A program made the translations under genes and the position numbers. Source: a virus. From it: 31,830 nucleotides of DNA. Positions 2,862 to 21,005 of the stretch are shown here, one piece after another. Under the pieces are notes generated by a model. That model was not told the DNA's origin. It did not search any database and saw nothing but the letters and a program-made list of their open reading frames with translations. Within the stretch, counting starts at the first letter, position 1. Each line of letters begins with the position of its first letter. Where the stretch lies: positions 1 to 31,830 of the IMG/VR virus record IMGVR_UViG_3300042945_001048, one strand, 5' to 3'.

Positions 2862-3508
2862 TGCCAGAATTAAATGCAAACATTCCACCCATAGAGTGTT
2901 ATGTGCGTGGAAACTTTTTAAGAGATCAGATAGATAGCCATGATCAATATTTTCCTTGTGTAATTTTTGGTGTGGCTAGTGTTCAAAATCGTAGTCCATT
3001 GTTTCATTTTTTAATGGAAGATGGCGGTATATGGTGGAGAATGCCTATTAATGCTTTTTGTACTAAACCAGATGTTCCAGAAGAAGACATACATAATCTT
3101 GTTTTATGGAATTCTTTTAGTCCATTTGTTACTGTAACTAAATTTGCAAACCTTGCAAACATGAGTATAAATTATATGGATAGGACTAAAACAAAAGTTT
3201 CTGGTAAATACCTTTTTACCCTTGATTGGCACAATCCTGATTCTAATAGACTTGATGATGGATATTCAGAAAATCCAGGTCAACATAAATGTGGTCATGT
3301 GATACAAAGAGATGACGGTAATTTTGCTATACAGCCAAATAACAGGGTATTTTTATTAGAGCCATCATTTACTACTAAACCTGGAAAACCTATAATTAAT
3401 AGGCTTATTAATACTAGGAAGTGGGATGTAGAAGATGCTTCTAAATGGATAACTGAAGATTCAGATAGTTATCATTATGATATAAATAATGAAGAAATTG
3501 ACAAATAA
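2861..3508 (+). CDS. Conserved-looking phage protein, unknown function
   Basis: This 215-residue soluble protein starts on the last base of the RuvC-like stop (TAATG). It is rich in aromatic residues and contains WWRMPINAFCTKPDVP (around 58-73), a Trp-rich core and LFTLDWHNPDSN. A short GHVIQRDDGNFAIQPNNRV segment looks like a beta hairpin. There is no signal peptide or membrane segment. I remember similar sequences in other phages near replication or recombination genes, always without a function, and cannot assign one here. Confidence 0.6.
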   Translation: MPELNANIPPIECYVRGNFLRDQIDSHDQYFPCVIFGVASVQNRSPLFHFLMEDGGIWWRMPINAFCTKPDVPEEDIHNLVLWNSFSPFVTVTKFANLANMSINYMDRTKTKVSGKYLFTLDWHNPDSNRLDDGYSENPGQHKCGHVIQRDDGNFAIQPNNRVFLLEPSFTTKPGKPIINRLINTRKWDVEDASKWITEDSDSYHYDINNEEIDK

Positions 3509-3512
3509 TCTT

Positions 3513-3668
3513 ATGAGTGGTAAACTATATAAGTCAGAGGTTTGGCTTCGTAAGAGATATCTTATGGATAAAAAATCTCCAGAAGATATTGCTAAGGAAT
3601 GTGGGGCAAGCGTAGAAACAATCTATGTATACCTTGCAAAATTTGGATTAAGGAAATCAAAACGATGA
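3513..3668 (+). CDS. 51-residue helix-turn-helix protein
   Basis: A short ORF running from ATG to TGA encodes a basic 51-residue protein. Its centre reads KKSPEDIAKECGASVETIY, a textbook homeodomain-like helix-turn-helix (SPEDIAKEC / GA / SVETIYVYLAKFGL), and basic ends flank it. This is likely a compact DNA-binding protein, either a regulator or a terminase-associated protein. The gene overlaps the next one by the ATGA motif at 3665. A longer overlapping frame starting at 3599 is discarded because this HTH frame is more protein-like. Confidence 0.7.
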   Translation: MSGKLYKSEVWLRKRYLMDKKSPEDIAKECGASVETIYVYLAKFGLRKSKR

Positions 3669-3790
3669 GTAAAACGCAGAAAATACTAATAGCATTTGGT
3701 CTTGCTAGTGCAGTTGGAATTACGTATGTATTAACAGCGCTAAAAGTATTACCAGAAGCATTAAGCATGGAAGATGATAAGAATGAGTAA
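3665..3790 (+). CDS. 41-residue single-pass membrane protein
   Basis: The start chosen is the ATG of the ATGA overlap with the HTH gene, not an upstream in-frame ATG at 3599 that would lie inside it. The protein has a basic N-terminus (MSKTQK), one hydrophobic segment at about residues 7-27 (ILIAFGLASAVGITYVLTAL) and an acidic tail (MEDDKNE). The predicted orientation is N-in with the short acidic tail outside. Function unknown. Confidence 0.6.
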   Translation: MSKTQKILIAFGLASAVGITYVLTALKVLPEALSMEDDKNE

Positions 3791-4028
3791 CAACTTGCAT
3801 ATCACAGTTGATCAAGTTAATCACCCAGTACATTATACAACTGATCCAAGTGGCGTAGAGTGCATACAAATTACTAGACATAGAAACTTTAATATAGGAA
3901 ATGCTTTTAAATATTTGTGGAGAGCAGGATTAAAAGACGAAGCCAAAACAATACAAGATTTAGAAAAAGCAATTTTTTATATTAAAGATGAAATTAATAG
4001 ACTAGAGGGTAAGTATAATGTCAACTGA
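3783..4028 (+). CDS. DUF3310 family phage protein
   Basis: The 81-residue protein carries the DUF3310 pattern: VNHPVHYTTDPSGVECI, then FNIGNAFKYLWRAGLKDEA and a DLEKAIFYI helix. This family is widespread in phages and is sometimes fused to or placed near nucleotide-metabolism enzymes; its biochemical role is not settled. ATG 3783 is chosen over the in-frame ATG at 3774 because a GGAAG sits about 10 nt upstream of it. The end overlaps terS by 11 nt. Confidence 0.85.
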   Translation: MSNNLHITVDQVNHPVHYTTDPSGVECIQITRHRNFNIGNAFKYLWRAGLKDEAKTIQDLEKAIFYIKDEINRLEGKYNVN

Positions 4029-11068: not shown

Positions 11069-11274
11069 TGGCTAAAGATTCTAATAAAAAAACTTTACTA
11101 AAAACAGCAAGTTGGGAAACCTTTCATCTTGTAGGTGTCGCTGGAGTTATTTATTTATTTACTCGTGAGTGGGAATATGCAAGTCTTGGCGCTCTTCTTT
11201 ATATTGGATGGGAAGCAATTGGATATTTTTTACATGAAAGAGTCTGGGCTAAATTTGGAAGCAAGGTAAAGTAA
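11068..11274 (+). CDS. DUF2061 family membrane protein
   Basis: This 68-residue protein follows the DUF2061 pattern: KTLLKTASWETFHLVGVAG at the start, a first hydrophobic segment, then ASLGALLYIGWEAIGYFLHE and RVW. The family consists of small two-pass inner-membrane proteins of unknown function in bacteria and some phages. Stop and start codons overlap on both sides (TAATG), placing it in a tight operon between a two-pass membrane protein and the endolysin. Confidence 0.75.
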   Translation: MAKDSNKKTLLKTASWETFHLVGVAGVIYLFTREWEYASLGALLYIGWEAIGYFLHERVWAKFGSKVK

Positions 11275-11849
11275 TGGCAGAACAAGGTACAGCAGAACGT
11301 TTAATTGAAGTTGCTACAGCAGAAATTGGAACTATTGAAGGTCCAAAAGATAACGAAACTAAGTACGGTGCCTTTATGAAAGCAAACTTTCAACCTTGGT
11401 GTGGTTCTTTTGTAAACTGGTGCGGTAATGAAGCAGGGGTAAAGATTCCTAATACTGTTTACACTCCAGGTGGGGCACAAGCATTTAAAAAAGCAGGATC
11501 ATGGATTGACGGAGACTTAGCAGATCCAGAACCAGGAGATATTGCTTACTTTGATTTTCCATCTGACGGGGTAGATAGAATATCTCACGTAGCCATTGTC
11601 GTTAAAGACAACGAAGATGGAACAGTATGGTGCATTGAAGGTAATACATCTGGAGATCCTAAAGGTAGCCAACGTAATGGTGGAGAGGTTTGTAAAAAAC
11701 TTCGTGCCTTTAAGAAAAATAAAAAAGGAATTATGGTTTCTATTGTAGGGTTTGGTAGACCTAAGTTTGGCTCTGCCCCTGCAAGTACTGCTAAAAAGAC
11801 TACCGCTAAGCCAAAAATATGCTCAGCCTGTGGTCAAAATATCAAATAA
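11274..11849 (+). CDS. CHAP-domain endolysin
   Basis: The 191-residue protein is a CHAP amidase/endopeptidase. The nucleophile is Cys43 in QPWCGSFVNWCGNEAG, the His is H105 in DRISHVAIVVKD, and E122/N124 in WCIEGNTSG provide the third position. PGDIAYFDFP before the His is also typical of the family. It would cleave peptidoglycan stem peptides or the amide bond. There is no signal peptide, so it needs a holin. Beyond about residue 160 a basic linker leads to CSACGQNIK, which has one CxxC pair and may be a remnant or half of a zinc site. It ends the membrane-gene cluster and is followed by a strong promoter. Confidence 0.85.
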   Translation: MAEQGTAERLIEVATAEIGTIEGPKDNETKYGAFMKANFQPWCGSFVNWCGNEAGVKIPNTVYTPGGAQAFKKAGSWIDGDLADPEPGDIAYFDFPSDGVDRISHVAIVVKDNEDGTVWCIEGNTSGDPKGSQRNGGEVCKKLRAFKKNKKGIMVSIVGFGRPKFGSAPASTAKKTTAKPKICSACGQNIK

Positions 11850-11856
11850 AAGGTCT

Positions 11857-11885
11857 TTGACTAAGCAATAATTATTTGCTATACT
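11857..11885 (+). promoter_or_regulatory. Strong SigA-type promoter
   Basis: TTGACT, a 17-bp spacer and TATACT, with TG one base before the -10 hexamer: the best full promoter in the window. A second TATACT follows at 11893. It drives the proteasome-like peptidase, whose ATG at 11915 is preceded by GAGGGG. Confidence 0.85.
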
Positions 11886-11914
11886 TAAAGGGTATACTCT
11901 GAGGGGATTTTTAT

Positions 11915-12439
11915 ATGACAGTCTTGGCTGTAGTTCGCCATGAAGGAAAAATTTACATGGCTGGGGATCGTGGTGCATCAGATGACAACACCATTCTTTC
12001 TTTAACAGCACCAAAAGTTTGGAAACTTGGTCCATATTTAATTGGATATGCAGGAGCATTAGATGGTGAACGAATTAGATATAATTTTAACCCATACGTT
12101 CCAGACATAAAAGATATAGACAAATTTATGCAAACTAAGTTTATTAAACAACTTAGAAATTTCTATGATGACTGGTGGGTAGATACATCTAAAGAAGGAG
12201 ATCTTGGTCTTATTATTTGTGTTAAGGGACAAATATATGAGCATAGTTCCGTAGACATGTCATTATCAAAATATAATTTAGATTATTTGGCTATGGGTTC
12301 AGGTGCAGAGTATGCATATGGATATTTAAATGCTACAGAAAATTTTAAAGATCCCAGAAAGCGTGTAGTTGGAGCAGTAAGTTCTGCTATTAAATTTAGT
12401 CCAACATGCATGGGTCCAGTTGACGTTGTAAGCATTTAA
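11915..12439 (+). CDS. HslV / 20S-proteasome-like Thr peptidase
   Basis: The 174-residue protein matches the Ntn-hydrolase fold of proteasome beta subunits and HslV. After Met removal the chain starts T1-VLAVV; D17 lies in YMAGDRGAS and K33 in LTAPKVWKL, exactly the T1/D17/K33 spacing of HslV. LGPYLIGYAGALDGE and LAMGSGAEYAYGYLN give the following strand and the GSG turn. Length equals that of HslV. No propeptide is present. Family members form rings that degrade proteins fed by an ATPase (HslU, Mpa/ARC). No ATPase gene is in the window, so it may use a host unfoldase or act alone. It has its own strong promoter, suggesting high or early expression. Confidence 0.82.
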   Translation: MTVLAVVRHEGKIYMAGDRGASDDNTILSLTAPKVWKLGPYLIGYAGALDGERIRYNFNPYVPDIKDIDKFMQTKFIKQLRNFYDDWWVDTSKEGDLGLIICVKGQIYEHSSVDMSLSKYNLDYLAMGSGAEYAYGYLNATENFKDPRKRVVGAVSSAIKFSPTCMGPVDVVSI

Positions 12440-12454: not shown

Positions 12455-12673
12455 ATGGCAAACTTTGACGATATATTAAAAGATTTACAAGATGAGTCAT
12501 CAAACCTTGATGAGTTTGAAATTTGGTTAACTAATGGAATTAAACGGGGCTGGGTAACAGAGCCATTTTGTAATACTCATGAAGGAGATCCTTATATGAC
12601 TGAAGAAGAGTCAGAAGAATGGGAAGAGGGCGGAGACCCTTGTCAAGTTGTAATTAAAATAAATAACAATTAA
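12455..12673 (+). CDS. Small acidic protein, unknown function
   Basis: This 72-residue protein contains FEIWLTNGIKRGWVTEPFC and then HEGDPYMTEEESEEWEEGGD ending in PCQVVIKI. I recall near-identical small proteins in many actinobacterial phages and in actinobacterial genomes, always without function. The two Cys and one His could bind metal. It is predicted to be leaderless and is followed 21 nt later by the secreted metallopeptidase gene. Confidence 0.75.
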   Translation: MANFDDILKDLQDESSNLDEFEIWLTNGIKRGWVTEPFCNTHEGDPYMTEEESEEWEEGGDPCQVVIKINNN

Positions 12674-12694: not shown

Positions 12695-14101
12695 ATGTGT
12701 ATTATTTGTGTATCTACCGTAACCGTTGCATCTTTATTAGCACCAACTCATTCAGCACCTGCTCAACCAGTTTTAGCAATTGAACAAAAATATGTTCAAG
12801 AAAATAAAGTTACTAATAAATTTTGTTCTAAATCACAATTAAACAAAGTAAAAGAAAACACTATATGTCTTAAAAATGGTAAAATTTATAAATGGACAAC
12901 AAAAAAAAATAATGTAACAAATACTCCAAAAACAAATTCAATAACCTATTCTCCTCCATCTCAACCAAGTGCAAACATAGAGTTATGTAAAATTAAAGAA
13001 AACAACAACAACCGATTGAGGTGGTCTGATTCTAAACTTCCTACAGGATTTCCAGGCTATACTCATGCAAAAAAAACAGGAACAGTTAAGTGGGCTTTAA
13101 TTCCACTAGATTTTCCAAACTTACCAGGAGAGGCAAACTTTAGATCACGCATAGATGAGCAAATGAAATTAACATCAGATTGGTTTGCCACAGTAAGTGG
13201 TGGCAAATTTAAAGTTGAATGGGTTGTATTAAATAAATGGGTACGAATTCCTAATCCAACCAGTGAATATACAATTGGTAGATCAGATAATCTTGAAAGA
13301 GTGCCTAATGCTGTGAAACTTTGGAATAATGCGATGACAGAAAGTGACAAAGTTTTTGACTTTACAGGTATTCAAACAGTCAATTTTATTCTTCCAAAGA
13401 ATCAAGATTTTGTACAAGAAACATTGCAGGGATTTCCATGGCAGCCAGAGGTAAAGGGGGTTGTTACAAATGAAGGAAGCGTATCTTCATTTTCAATTCC
13501 TGGAAAACATTTTGATAAACTTAACAGGCAGTACTGGTCTTATTGGGTGCATGAGTTTGGTCATGCCATGGCATTGCCACATATTGGCTCATCTCGTGAA
13601 CCTAATCCGTTTCTTGGATTAGACATTATGGGAAATCAAGATGGTGAGTCTAGAGAACTTAGTGGGTGGATGCGTTTTGTTGCAGGTTGGCTTGATGATG
13701 AAAGGGTTTATTGTAAACAACTCAGTAAATTAGAAAACACTGAGATTACCTTGGTGCCTTTAAATGATTCTAGCAGTGGAGTAAAAATGGTTGTAATACC
13801 TTTATCTCAAACAAAAGCAATAATTATTGAATCACGCCGTGAAAATAAATTTTCATGCACTATGCCTACAAAAAGAAATGGTGTGTTGGTTTATACCTAT
13901 GATGCCACGCTGAGTCATGGTGAAAACTTTTTAAAACCTGTTACTAACGGTAGTACACCTGTGTCTAGTTCTAATTGCGCTGTAGTACCAAGTCCAAATC
14001 CTATTCATTACAAAGGTGACAAAATCTCTGTTGAAGGAGTGACAATAGAGGTGGTTGATAGTTTAAATTATGACAAAATTAAGATAATTAAAAACAATTA
14101 A
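12695..14101 (+). CDS. Secreted M6-like zinc metallopeptidase
   Basis: The 468-residue protein carries the zinc motif HEFGHAMALPH (H286, E287, H290, H296) and a following DIMG (Met-turn region), the metzincin-like arrangement of the M6 immune-inhibitor-A family. The sequence after it, LSGWMRFVAGWL, is also typical of secreted M6-like proteins. The N-terminus (IICVSTVTVASLLAPTHSAP) looks like a short signal peptide cut near PVLA. Residues 30-125 are a Cys-containing, Asn/Pro-rich linker; a beta domain follows the catalytic part. It is exported and could cut host surface proteins during entry or exit. AGGGGG precedes the ATG. Confidence 0.82.
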   Translation: MCIICVSTVTVASLLAPTHSAPAQPVLAIEQKYVQENKVTNKFCSKSQLNKVKENTICLKNGKIYKWTTKKNNVTNTPKTNSITYSPPSQPSANIELCKIKENNNNRLRWSDSKLPTGFPGYTHAKKTGTVKWALIPLDFPNLPGEANFRSRIDEQMKLTSDWFATVSGGKFKVEWVVLNKWVRIPNPTSEYTIGRSDNLERVPNAVKLWNNAMTESDKVFDFTGIQTVNFILPKNQDFVQETLQGFPWQPEVKGVVTNEGSVSSFSIPGKHFDKLNRQYWSYWVHEFGHAMALPHIGSSREPNPFLGLDIMGNQDGESRELSGWMRFVAGWLDDERVYCKQLSKLENTEITLVPLNDSSSGVKMVVIPLSQTKAIIIESRRENKFSCTMPTKRNGVLVYTYDATLSHGENFLKPVTNGSTPVSSSNCAVVPSPNPIHYKGDKISVEGVTIEVVDSLNYDKIKIIKNN

Positions 14102-14195: not shown

Positions 14196-14267
14196 GCCCT
14201 CATCGTCTAGTGGTTAGGACATCACCCTTTCACGGTGGTAACAGGGGTTCAATTCCCCTTGGGGGTA
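14196..14267 (+). tRNA. tRNA-Glu (TTC)
   Basis: Acceptor GCCCTCA/TGGGGGT (first pair G-U), anticodon stem TCACC/GGTGG with loop CTTTCAC (anticodon TTC), T arm AGGGG/CCCCT with loop TTCAATT. Discriminator A, CCA not encoded. It lies 4 nt after tRNA-Gly, so the two are probably one transcript. Confidence 0.95.
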
Positions 14268-14287
14268 CTAAAATTAATATTAAAACA

Positions 14288-14296
14288 TGATATAAT
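14288..14296 (+). promoter_or_regulatory. Extended -10 promoter, leaderless
   Basis: TGA TATAAT ends 7 nt before ATG 14304. The same frame opens earlier inside the tRNA-Glu gene, which cannot be the true start. Confidence 0.65.
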
Positions 14297-14303
14297 TAAT
14301 TAC

Positions 14304-15107
14304 ATGAAATCTTTATACGAAATACCATTAAATTCTGCAGAGGGCACACCAAACCATTTAGAACAGTACAAAAACAAGGTAACTCTTGTTGTCAACACAA
14401 CCGTTGGTTGCGGAAATGCTAATCAGATGGAAGTATTGCAGTGGCTACAAGAAAAATATCAAGATCAAGGTTTTGAAGTAATTGCTGTTCCAACAAATGA
14501 TTACTGTGGGCCAGGAGTTACTAAAGGAAAATGGTCACAAGGAATTACTTGTGGTGCAGACTCAAAAAAATATGGAGAAGAAGTTTACGGAACTACATTT
14601 AAATTTTCAGAAATGGTTTCATCAAATCCTAATAAACTTGTAAATCAATTAAGCGAATACAAAGAAAATGAAAACGTAAACGGTTTAGGACAACCACATG
14701 GAGAGCCTCACGAACTATATAAAGAAATTTCAAATCAAATGATGTTATTATGTAAAATAAAAGATACTATTAAAGAAGAAATTCCAGAAGGTGGTTACTT
14801 ATCTCCTTGGCTAAATAAAGGATTTTATATGGGCGCCAAGATGGGCGGAAACTATGAAAAATATTTAGTAGATAAAGATGGATATGTTGTAAAACATTTT
14901 ACATGTACAACGCTAAATTATGATATAGAAAAAACCCTTAAAGAGACATTAATATTAGAAGGAAAGCCTGCACGTATGGGTGAAGGAAGAACTATGGAAG
15001 TTTTTAATGAGGAATATGCAGTAATATGTGGTGAAATAGAAAAATTAATTGCAGGAAATAAATCTCCAATTAATCCTTTTTTTAATAATATTTTGCAAAA
15101 AATATAA
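14304..15107 (+). CDS. Glutathione-peroxidase-like thioredoxin-fold protein
   Basis: The 267-residue protein begins like GPx (MKSLYEIPLN) and has the KVTLVVNTTVGCG segment with peroxidatic Cys36, then FEVIAVPTNDYCG and later NYEKYLVDKDGYVVKHF (GPx: NFEKFLVDRxG). GPx enzymes reduce peroxides using glutathione or thioredoxin; a thioredoxin gene lies 2 kb downstream. Odd points: the catalytic Gln (NQF) reads NDY, the catalytic Trp before Asn reads Gly (GGNYEK), extra cysteines occur at 68 and 83, and there are an insertion in the middle and a C-terminal extension of roughly 50 residues. It may therefore not be a normal peroxidase. The start is set by the promoter (7-nt spacing). Confidence 0.72.
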   Translation: MKSLYEIPLNSAEGTPNHLEQYKNKVTLVVNTTVGCGNANQMEVLQWLQEKYQDQGFEVIAVPTNDYCGPGVTKGKWSQGITCGADSKKYGEEVYGTTFKFSEMVSSNPNKLVNQLSEYKENENVNGLGQPHGEPHELYKEISNQMMLLCKIKDTIKEEIPEGGYLSPWLNKGFYMGAKMGGNYEKYLVDKDGYVVKHFTCTTLNYDIEKTLKETLILEGKPARMGEGRTMEVFNEEYAVICGEIEKLIAGNKSPINPFFNNILQKI

Positions 15108-15197: not shown

Positions 15198-15614
15198 ATG
15201 GTAACACAGTTCGCTATGGATCTTTTCAATGATCCTTTTTTTATTGGATTCAACAGAGAGTTGGGTCGTTTAAATACAGCACATAAAGTAAATTCACAAT
15301 CATATCCTCCATATGATCTTCTTAAACTAGATGAAGATACATATAGACTATCTGTTGCAGTTGCTGGATTTTCAAAAGAAAACATCAATGTATCAGTAGA
15401 TGATGGAACCTTAATTATTAAAGGTGAAATTGTTGAGGTTACAGATGCTGAAGTTGTTCACAAAGGAATTGCTGGTCGTAAATTTACCCGCACATTTGCT
15501 CTTGGTGAATACATGGAAGTCTCTAGTGCTGACTTAAAGGACGGTATGCTTACAGTTAGCATTGTTCGCATTGTTCCTGAAGAAAAAAAACCAAAGGTCA
15601 TTAAGATCAAATAA
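15198..15614 (+). CDS. Hsp20 small heat-shock chaperone
   Basis: This 138-residue protein is an alpha-crystallin-type chaperone of the IbpA class found in bacteria and many marine and freshwater phages. The N-terminus has FNDPFFIGFNREL (typical of IbpA), the core PPYDLLKLDEDTYRLSVAVA and GFSKENINVSVDDGTLIIKG, and the C-terminal part GRKFTRTFALGEYMEVSSAD, DGMLTVSI and PEEKKPKVIKI, with an I-x-I-like end (VIKIK). It prevents aggregation of unfolded proteins, perhaps in virion assembly. A start at the ATG behind AAAGGGG fits the family. Confidence 0.92.
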   Translation: MVTQFAMDLFNDPFFIGFNRELGRLNTAHKVNSQSYPPYDLLKLDEDTYRLSVAVAGFSKENINVSVDDGTLIIKGEIVEVTDAEVVHKGIAGRKFTRTFALGEYMEVSSADLKDGMLTVSIVRIVPEEKKPKVIKIK

Positions 15615-19036: not shown

Positions 19037-19450
19037 ATGCAAGAATTAATAGGAATATTCTTGACATTAGGCGTTTTTTGGGTTATAATTAATAGAACAA
19101 AAAAGACTGAAAAAAAGAAAACTTTAATAACCTTGTCTCGCCAAAGCGATGTGCATAAATTGTTAAAACATTTTTTTTCAATTTCTTTAGCAAGTAATGA
19201 TAACTCTACGCAGTTGACAAAGCATAGACAAAAAGGTATGATTAGAGTTATTGTTTTAGGTAATCAGGCTTACTGGGTATCTAACAATAAATTTTATGTT
19301 GCAGAGGCTATTAATGGTGAGGTACAAAAAAGCACTACAAAGCCAGTAGACATAGATAATTTGTCAAAAGTAGATTTAGATAAGATGTTGTTTATACTAG
19401 ATAGTTTAAAGGATGGGAAAAGAAATGATCGTGGCAGTTCAGGGAACTAA
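19037..19450 (+). CDS. Membrane-anchored phage protein
   Basis: This 137-residue protein has an N-terminal membrane segment (LIGIFLTLGVFWVIIN, 4-19) followed by a basic stop-transfer (RTKKTEKKK), giving a cytoplasmic domain of about 110 residues. The domain is beta-rich with MIRVIVLGNQAYWVSNNKFY. No function recognised. No Shine-Dalgarno is visible before ATG 19037. The end overlaps the next gene by 26 nt. Confidence 0.6.
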   Translation: MQELIGIFLTLGVFWVIINRTKKTEKKKTLITLSRQSDVHKLLKHFFSISLASNDNSTQLTKHRQKGMIRVIVLGNQAYWVSNNKFYVAEAINGEVQKSTTKPVDIDNLSKVDLDKMLFILDSLKDGKRNDRGSSGN

Positions 19451-19784: not shown

Positions 19785-19994
19785 ATGTTTATTAGAAGTT
19801 TGAATACTATGGAAAAAATTGTTTCCAAAAATAATAATTTACTTTGGAATGGATGGGATGTTATTGATTTAAAAGAATCAGACATTGCAAAAACATCCCC
19901 AAAAGGCATTAGGGTAAAAGATAAATGGTATGTTCATAAAATTTATTCACCTAGTCGCAATGGTTGGGATATTCCAAACAAGTATCGAGATTAA
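19785..19994 (+). CDS. Small conserved-looking phage protein
   Basis: This 69-residue protein follows AGGGGG. The sequence MFIRSLNTMEKIVSKNNNLL and WNGWDVIDLKESDIAK, ending WDIPNKYRD, matches a family I remember from actinobacterial phages, where it has no assigned role. It overlaps no upstream gene and ends 2 nt before the whiB ATG. Confidence 0.65.
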   Translation: MFIRSLNTMEKIVSKNNNLLWNGWDVIDLKESDIAKTSPKGIRVKDKWYVHKIYSPSRNGWDIPNKYRD

Positions 19995-19996
19995 AA

Positions 19997-20281
19997 ATGA
20001 AACAGCATTTATGGAAAGATAACGCTATTTGTTTAGGACTTGAAACTAATATTTATTTTGATAAATATGAAGACAGTCCTGATAGTAGAGGAGTAGTTGA
20101 CTCTATGTGCCAAATGTGTCCAGTAGCCAAAACTTGTTTTGCTGTAGGCATATCTGGAAAAGAGTGGGGAGTTTGGGGCGGTGTATACTTAGAAAATGGA
20201 GAAGTGTCAAGAGAGTTTAACAACCACAAAACTAAACAAGACTGGTCAGTTACTTGGCAGTCATTAACAATGGAAAAATAA
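19997..20281 (+). CDS. WhiB-family Fe-S transcription regulator
   Basis: The 94-residue protein has the WhiB (Wbl) signature. Four cysteines, C12 (NAICLG) and C38, C41, C47 (CQMCPVAKTC), bind a 4Fe-4S cluster; GVWGGVYLENG (58-68) is the conserved G-[VI]-W-G-G turn that contacts sigma factor region 4, and a basic tail follows (NNHKTKQ). Wbl proteins occur only in Actinobacteria and their phages and control transcription with SigA. Phage homologues can block septation or superinfection. ATG 19997 is chosen because the family begins near W-x-D-x-A-x-C; an upstream in-frame ATG at 19964 overlaps the previous gene. The neighbouring genes share no obvious WhiB site. Confidence 0.92.
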   Translation: MKQHLWKDNAICLGLETNIYFDKYEDSPDSRGVVDSMCQMCPVAKTCFAVGISGKEWGVWGGVYLENGEVSREFNNHKTKQDWSVTWQSLTMEK

Positions 20282-20511
20282 TGTATACAGATAAAATGAA
20301 AATGGCTTTTCATTCAATACCATCCCCTAAAAATTTTAAGGTAGACATTATAGACAACGAATATTTTATTACAGTTAAGGCCAATGAGGCTATGTTTATG
20401 CGTTTATTTGACACAGATAAGCGACAAGCGATAGAATATATGGTAAGAGTAAAAAAGGCTTTAGAAGATAATGGAGCAATAGTTATGATTACTAGAGAGG
20501 CTATCAAATAA
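20281..20511 (+). CDS. Small phage protein, unknown function
   Basis: This 76-residue protein starts on the last base of the whiB stop (TAATG). MKMAFHSIPSPKNFKVDIID is followed by a strand-helix pattern (YFITVKANEAMFMRLFDTDK) and a C-terminal helix. No recognised family; an upstream in-frame start at 20254 inside whiB is discarded. It ends on the start base of the glycosylase-like gene. Confidence 0.6.
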   Translation: MYTDKMKMAFHSIPSPKNFKVDIIDNEYFITVKANEAMFMRLFDTDKRQAIEYMVRVKKALEDNGAIVMITREAIK

Positions 20512-21005
20512 TGCAAACCTTTCTACCTTATAAAGATTATGACCAATGTGCAAAAATATTAGACAATAAAAGATTAAATAAACAAATATTAGAAGCCTAT
20601 CAGATACTTAAGGTTTTATCTGGTCAATCTCCTTCAGGCGCTTGGCGTAATCATCCAGCGGTATTGATGTGGAAAAACTCTGAATATTCACTACGTACTT
20701 ATGCTAAAGCCATGATTACAGAGGCTAAGGTAAGGGGTATTAAGACAGACAAGAATGAGGCCAATATAGAGGCTCTAGAGGCCGTTTGTGGGCAGATTTG
20801 GGGTACTAATAAGCCAGTCTGGAATAAGCCATCTCACATAAACCGTGTAAATATCACTCATAGGGCTAACCTATATCGTAAAGATCCTATTTACTACGCT
20901 GAGTTTTATTTAGACACTAAGAACGAGTATAATAGACCTTGCTGTGATAAATGTTTATACTATTGGGCAACGCATGTTGATAAAAGATTATTGGGGGTAG
21001 CGTAA
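20511..21005 (+). CDS. Pyrimidine-dimer glycosylase-like protein
   Basis: This 164-residue protein has the pattern MQTFLPYKDYDQCAKILDNK, RLNKQILEAYQIL and AWRNHPAVLMWKNSEYSL that I associate with the actinobacterial MSMEG_6728-type pyrimidine dimer DNA glycosylase family, which shares the T4 endonuclease V fold. The conserved N-terminal segment would carry the catalytic residue; the later C-x2-C near residue 146 (CCDKC) is an addition that could bind zinc. Such an enzyme would start base-excision repair of UV-damaged phage DNA, plausible for a surface-water phage. The family call comes from motif memory and is moderate. Confidence 0.6.
   Translation: MQTFLPYKDYDQCAKILDNKRLNKQILEAYQILKVLSGQSPSGAWRNHPAVLMWKNSEYSLRTYAKAMITEAKVRGIKTDKNEANIEALEAVCGQIWGTNKPVWNKPSHINRVNITHRANLYRKDPIYYAEFYLDTKNEYNRPCCDKCLYYWATHVDKRLLGVA

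Follow-up and report, generated by a model that had tools for sequence, protein, structure and literature searches.

A putative group I proteasome-type threonine hydrolase in a lineage of probable actinobacterial phages

The locus and its promoter

The window, by which we mean the whole stretch of 31,830 nucleotides analyzed here (positions 1 to 31,830 of IMG/VR virus record IMGVR_UViG_3300042945_001048), carries a gene for a proteasome-like protein placed between a CHAP endolysin gene and a gene for a small acidic protein. The features of the locus, and two genes further downstream that bear on its interpretation, are as follows:

11274-11849, plus strand: CHAP endolysin gene, given as context and without any claim of partnership
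11857-11885, plus strand: sigma-70-like promoter, TTGACT-N17-TATACT, with an extended -10 element (TTTGCTATACTTA)
11901-11906, plus strand: Shine-Dalgarno-like GAGGGG, 8 nt upstream of the ATG of the next feature
11915-12439, plus strand: open reading frame of the putative proteasome-like threonine hydrolase (group I), 174 amino acids, ATG start
11918-11920, 11966-11968 and 12014-12016, plus strand: predicted catalytic codons for T1 (ACA), D17 (GAT) and K33 (AAA)
12455-12673, plus strand: small acidic protein of 72 amino acids with a Cys/His motif, the next gene downstream
15198-15614, plus strand: small heat-shock protein HSP20, a speculative feeder of substrates
19964-20281, plus strand: WhiB-like regulator (PF02467, 4.6e-10), a marker of actinobacterial phages

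An in-frame stop lies a few codons upstream of the ATG at 11915. Following its initiator methionine, the encoded 174-amino-acid protein reads TVLAVVRHEGKIYMAGD, with T1, D17 and K33 at the spacing seen in HslV and the 20S proteasome. The open reading frame is real, and the profile matches, the structural model and the conservation described below together exclude a chance resemblance.

WhiB has served as an actinophage marker before (PMC10202952, PMC6802176). The window encodes it, as do 15 of the 16 relative contigs tested, and its presence marks these genomes as probable actinobacterial phages. The GC content of the phage DNA is 33.6%. Shortly downstream of the WhiB gene, positions 20511-21005 encode a T4 endonuclease V-type pyrimidine dimer glycosylase (PF03013, 1.3e-19).

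The hydrolase gene appears to have a promoter of its own. A TTGACN-N17-TATACT motif sits 27-31 nt upstream of the ATG in 69 of the 77 relatives with enough sequence, where the extended element TTTG-N-TATACTTA is nearly invariant and the spacer partly variable. The endolysin gene directly precedes the hydrolase gene in most relatives (63 of 66 with enough sequence), but the promoter is also kept in one group (the L056-type loci) that has a different gene upstream. Because this conservation persists where the upstream gene differs, there is good support for an independent transcription start. The first-pass annotation had called this promoter the strongest in the window; the site itself is present and conserved, but better matches to the consensus occur elsewhere (12/12 at 19061 and 11/12 at three other sites). 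Promoter-like sites are no commoner in the window than expected (46 observed versus 46.6 in shuffled sequence), and the perfect sigma-70 consensus at 19061-19089 (TTGACA-N17-TATAAT) lies within an open reading frame.

Active site, fold and family placement

Searching IMG/VR, we found 234 stretches that encode a close relative of the 174-amino-acid protein, of which we kept 80. These are 89-100% identical, and every one begins M-T-V/C, with no conserved N-terminal extension that would block T1. The absence of a propeptide, proposed from the window alone, is thus borne out, as is the placement of T1 after the methionine and of D17 and K33. In an alignment of 45 sequences from the IMG/VR loci, T2, D18 and K34 (counting the methionine) and both glycines of the GSG motif are invariant, and the putative equivalent of the oxyanion-hole Gly47, the glycine of LIGYAGA (G46 counted from T1), is nearly so. 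A wider alignment of 16 phage proteins leaves M1, D18, K34, G44, G128 and G130 as invariant columns, and T2 is present in 15 of the 16. The exception, from Tenacibaculum phage pT24 (L086:3001-3597), begins M-S, so that its nucleophile would be Ser1 rather than Thr1. Across 49 distinct coding sequences of the window lineage, the median dN/dS is 0.054 at a median dS of 0.84; the gene is under strong purifying selection.

The predicted structure agrees with these signatures. An AlphaFold2 single-chain model, built from the 45-sequence alignment, reached a mean pLDDT of 91.7 and a pTM of 0.87. It runs from strands through a short helix H1 (51-57) and H2 (68-86) to further strands, helices 131-140 and 147-161 and a final strand (170-173), at which it terminates with no extra helix and no C-terminal S12/H5. 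Such a compact subunit without insertions corresponds to group I. The model and its Foldseek matches place the protein in the Ntn alpha-beta-beta-alpha core fold, as the first-pass annotation had anticipated: the top solved structures are HslV (6kui, 1.1e-12) and BPH (5ovs, 1.7e-12), and among viral models Foldseek matched phage proteins, some of them named HslV or proteasome subunit. Because H1 is short in the model, the geometry of a ring could differ from that of HslV and BPH.

Sequence profiles point to the same family. A search of PHROGs returned phrog_1040, 'peptidase HslV family', across the whole protein (E=5.8e-19), and the Pfam Proteasome score of 20.6 bits falls just under the 22.4-bit cut-off. 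Against the PDB, the 45-row profile matched HslV at 1.1e-14, BPH at 4.4e-14 and actinobacterial PrcB at 1.5e-6. By contrast, the equivalog models exclude HslV proper (23 bits versus a cut-off of 157.75), one of the identities first proposed. The protein shares with HslV (ClpQ) the fold, the triad and the Met-Thr start, but it is only 22% identical to the E. coli enzyme, and we found no hslU in 16 relative contigs of up to 111 kb, which may be incomplete. We likewise rejected an identity with the 20S beta subunit or actinobacterial PrcB, as there is no propeptide and, at 15.3 bits, the bacterial 20S beta equivalog stays below its cut-off of 191.9.

A 2021 survey divided the group I proteasome homologues into HslV, BPH, AAH, CPH, PPH, RPC and DPH, and reported a propeptide solely for the proteasome beta subunit and HslV (Fuchs, Alva and Lupas 2021, PMC8665760). 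Of these, BPH gives the best TM-scores among solved structures (0.79-0.80) and resembles the phage protein in belonging to group I and in having no unfoldase partner, but its identity to it is 16-19%. PPH is also phage-borne and in group I; however, it is ~140 amino acids long and lacks H2 (PMC8665760), whereas the window protein has 174 amino acids and H2 at 68-86, and we rejected this identity. The closest likeness appears to be to AAH, in the compact group I subunit, the lack of a propeptide and the T1/D17/K33 triad. In profile comparison the best matches were proteins of Rhizobium, Mesorhizobium and Streptomyces (rhizobial and Streptomyces plasmids) and related phage proteins (171 columns, full length, E 1.6e-19), followed by an actinophage group comprising E7 and DSL-LC01 (2.7e-12) and then by E. 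coli HslV (3.6e-4). From their distribution we infer that the plasmid proteins are AAH. The window protein differs from this presumed AAH in its ~23% identity, its own deep branch and its occurrence in actinobacterial phages. In the tree, its clade forms a separate long branch of 3.1 changes per site (support 100/100) whose placement is unsure, and because of this we describe the protein as apparently AAH-like rather than as AAH. Cellular relatives came from the plasmids alone in this analysis, since neither of two alignment-based searches of contigs from GTDB genomes returned any.

In phages, proteasome-type subunits are less rare than the first-pass annotation held: homologues occur in 155 GenBank phage records, and the enzyme family is already known from phages through PHROG 1040 and the 2021 survey. 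That survey found AAH in many phages, yet in no actinobacterial phage (PMC8665760). Homologues are nonetheless not rare among the latter, because the Planktophila phages E7 and F5 (OX376640/OX376641), DSL-LC01, Microbacterium phage Pumpernickel and Arthrobacter phages Hum25 and Pitbull encode them, some annotated as protease or HslV. The E7 homologue matches phrog_1040 at 4e-30; this family is broad and functionally undefined, and divergence is all that separates the window protein from it. The homologues of E7/F5, DSL-LC01, Pumpernickel and Hum25 share with the window protein the fold family, the triad and a setting in actinobacterial phages, but they form a separate clade and are ~27-31% identical where aligned. 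The distinct and widespread actinophage branch to which the window protein belongs seems to have escaped description so far, and the literature that we found neither assigns nor discusses a function for phage proteasome homologues.

Gene neighborhood and candidate partners

Around the hydrolase gene, the relatives keep a conserved order of endolysin, proteasome-like protein, 72-amino-acid acidic protein, a variable insert, HSP20, SNase and thioredoxin. Because these relatives all belong to one phage group, the kept order may reflect shared ancestry. The small acidic gene follows the hydrolase gene in 71 of 79 relatives at a distance of 19-63 nt. Its product exists as either a 68- or a 72-amino-acid version, which are exchangeable and share a conserved CNTHxG...GGDPC motif, and the protein encoded at 12455-12673 has no match in Pfam, PHROGs or phage records. 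We rejected it as a general partner, given the missing phage-record match and the other version in some relatives. HSP20 is encoded no more than 6 kb downstream in 46 of the 51 relatives; its link to the hydrolase is specific to this clade, and we found no HSP20 in the genomes of E7, DSL-LC01, Pumpernickel and Hum25, other actinophages that carry a homologue, which led us to reject this general partner as well.

The genes between the small acidic gene and HSP20 vary. Positions 12695-14101, variable cargo adjoining this part of the locus, encode a 468-amino-acid protein with a weak M66 match and the sequence HEFGHAMALPH, which fits the HExxHxxxxxH metallopeptidase motif. A glutathione peroxidase-like protein (14235-15107), extended at its C-terminus, occurs only in some relatives.

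No ATPase partner gene had been recognized in the window, and this holds for two unfoldase families in larger relatives of up to 111 kb. Among 16 relative contigs of 45-111 kb, which may be incomplete, AAA_2 (PF07724, the HslU/ClpX type) has no match, and AAA (PF00004, the Mpa/ARC type) has just four weak matches below the cut-off, all to short frames of 255-266 amino acids. The counterpart of these frames in the 111-kb contig starts like a P-loop kinase (IIQIIGLPGSGKTELAK), and the weak matches are probably all P-loop kinases. We therefore rejected a dedicated phage unfoldase of either type in these contigs. As no relative contig is known to be complete, a phage ATPase might have escaped detection, or the enzyme could draw on one from the host.

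The homologues of the E7 clade (L096-L175) occupy a different setting. Whereas the window-type gene adjoins an endolysin gene, the E7-type gene lies in a portal-capsid operon. In the E7 genome itself the homologue (L194:7500-8036) is upstream of genes for a scaffold-like protein and the major head protein.

Possible modes of action

Our preferred reading, to which we give slightly better than an even chance, is that the product of the gene is a catalytically competent AAH-like threonine hydrolase of group I, lacking a propeptide, which is predicted to assemble by itself and to cut without a dedicated ATPase. A methionine that precedes threonine is cleaved off under the rules of methionine excision, and Thr1 would be exposed in this way by a methionine aminopeptidase of the host or the phage. 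The subunits would then form a single or double homo-oligomeric ring enclosing the active sites, and, as has been proposed for BPH, the chamber would cleave unfolded or unstructured polypeptides of host or phage with no ATPase dedicated to it. HSP20, encoded nearby, or another chaperone might present substrates. The benefit to the phage could lie in the recycling of amino acids, the removal of misfolded proteins or the destruction of specific host proteins, three outcomes that our data do not separate.

A different division of labor, which we consider unlikely but worth weighing, would have the protein supply the peptidase of a two-component machine, with a host AAA+ unfoldase (such as Mpa/ARC or ClpX/ClpC) feeding it and the host's unfolding capacity redirected to substrates of the phage's choosing. 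Folded proteins are degraded by its HslV and 20S relatives only with the help of an ATPase, and since neither of the families looked for turned up in the phage contigs, that ATPase would have to come from the host; however, none of the newly described proteasome homologues has a co-occurring AAA+ partner (PMC8665760), and the phage protein lacks the C-terminal H5/S12 and shows no hint of a docking interface in its sequence. Still less probable, in our judgment, is an Ntn hydrolase with some function other than general proteolysis, namely a specific processing enzyme, an amidase or a protein ligase like connectase. The family does include the monomeric ligase connectase (PMC8665760), and a long separate branch of 3.1 changes per site is compatible with a new specificity. 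Against this, the profile is nearest to the bona fide peptidases HslV and BPH, and no additional helices separate S3 from S4 in the model, the place where connectase has its signature insertion.

Two further roles fared worse. PrcAB proteasomes are known from species of the presumed host phylum, and the shared fold might let the phage subunit co-assemble with a host 20S proteasome or poison it, but the equivalog score already given, the preference of the PDB profile search for HslV and BPH over PrcB and the lack of a propeptide make this replacement or subversion of the host machine, as raised by the first-pass annotation, extremely improbable. Head maturation is nearly as hard to sustain. Peptidase_S78 is the usual prohead protease; it is present in 9 of the 16 records, including the five largest contigs of the window clade, and in the 111-kb contig (G001) it adjoins capsid-sized open reading frames ~45 kb from the proteasome-like gene. 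Because a separate S78 is present, and with the window gene next to an endolysin under its own promoter, we rejected a head-maturation role for the window clade, and we consider it very unlikely that the phage threonine hydrolase is a prohead protease. What speaks for such a role comes from the E7 clade, in which the homologue comes immediately after the portal gene in 79 of the 80 loci, and from the E7 genome, where we found no S78 or ClpP-type protease. Because of this location and this absence, the E7-clade homologue could be a morphogenesis protease.

Taken together with our preferred reading, this invites a conjecture that we hold only tentatively and would not expect to stand in full: that the threonine peptidases of actinophages are stand-alone machines without an unfoldase, separately promoted near HSP20 in the window lineage and recruited into the head-assembly operon in E7/F5. 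If true, the E7/F5 homologue would be the first proteasome-type enzyme to process a scaffold or capsid protein. The 234 IMG/VR relatives, the strong purifying selection and the gene's own promoter suggest that these phages rely on the gene, and the cultured phages E7 and F5, which grow on 'Ca. Planktophila', make the role of a phage proteasome subunit testable. The actinophage link bears on the gap stated by the 2021 survey (PMC8665760).

Outside the actinophages, Aeromonas phage 4L372XY carries two adjoining HslV-family genes (L195:2474-3025 and 3043-3870). One product is AAH-like and the other combines a short core with a C-terminal extension; Thr1, Asp and Lys are present in both.
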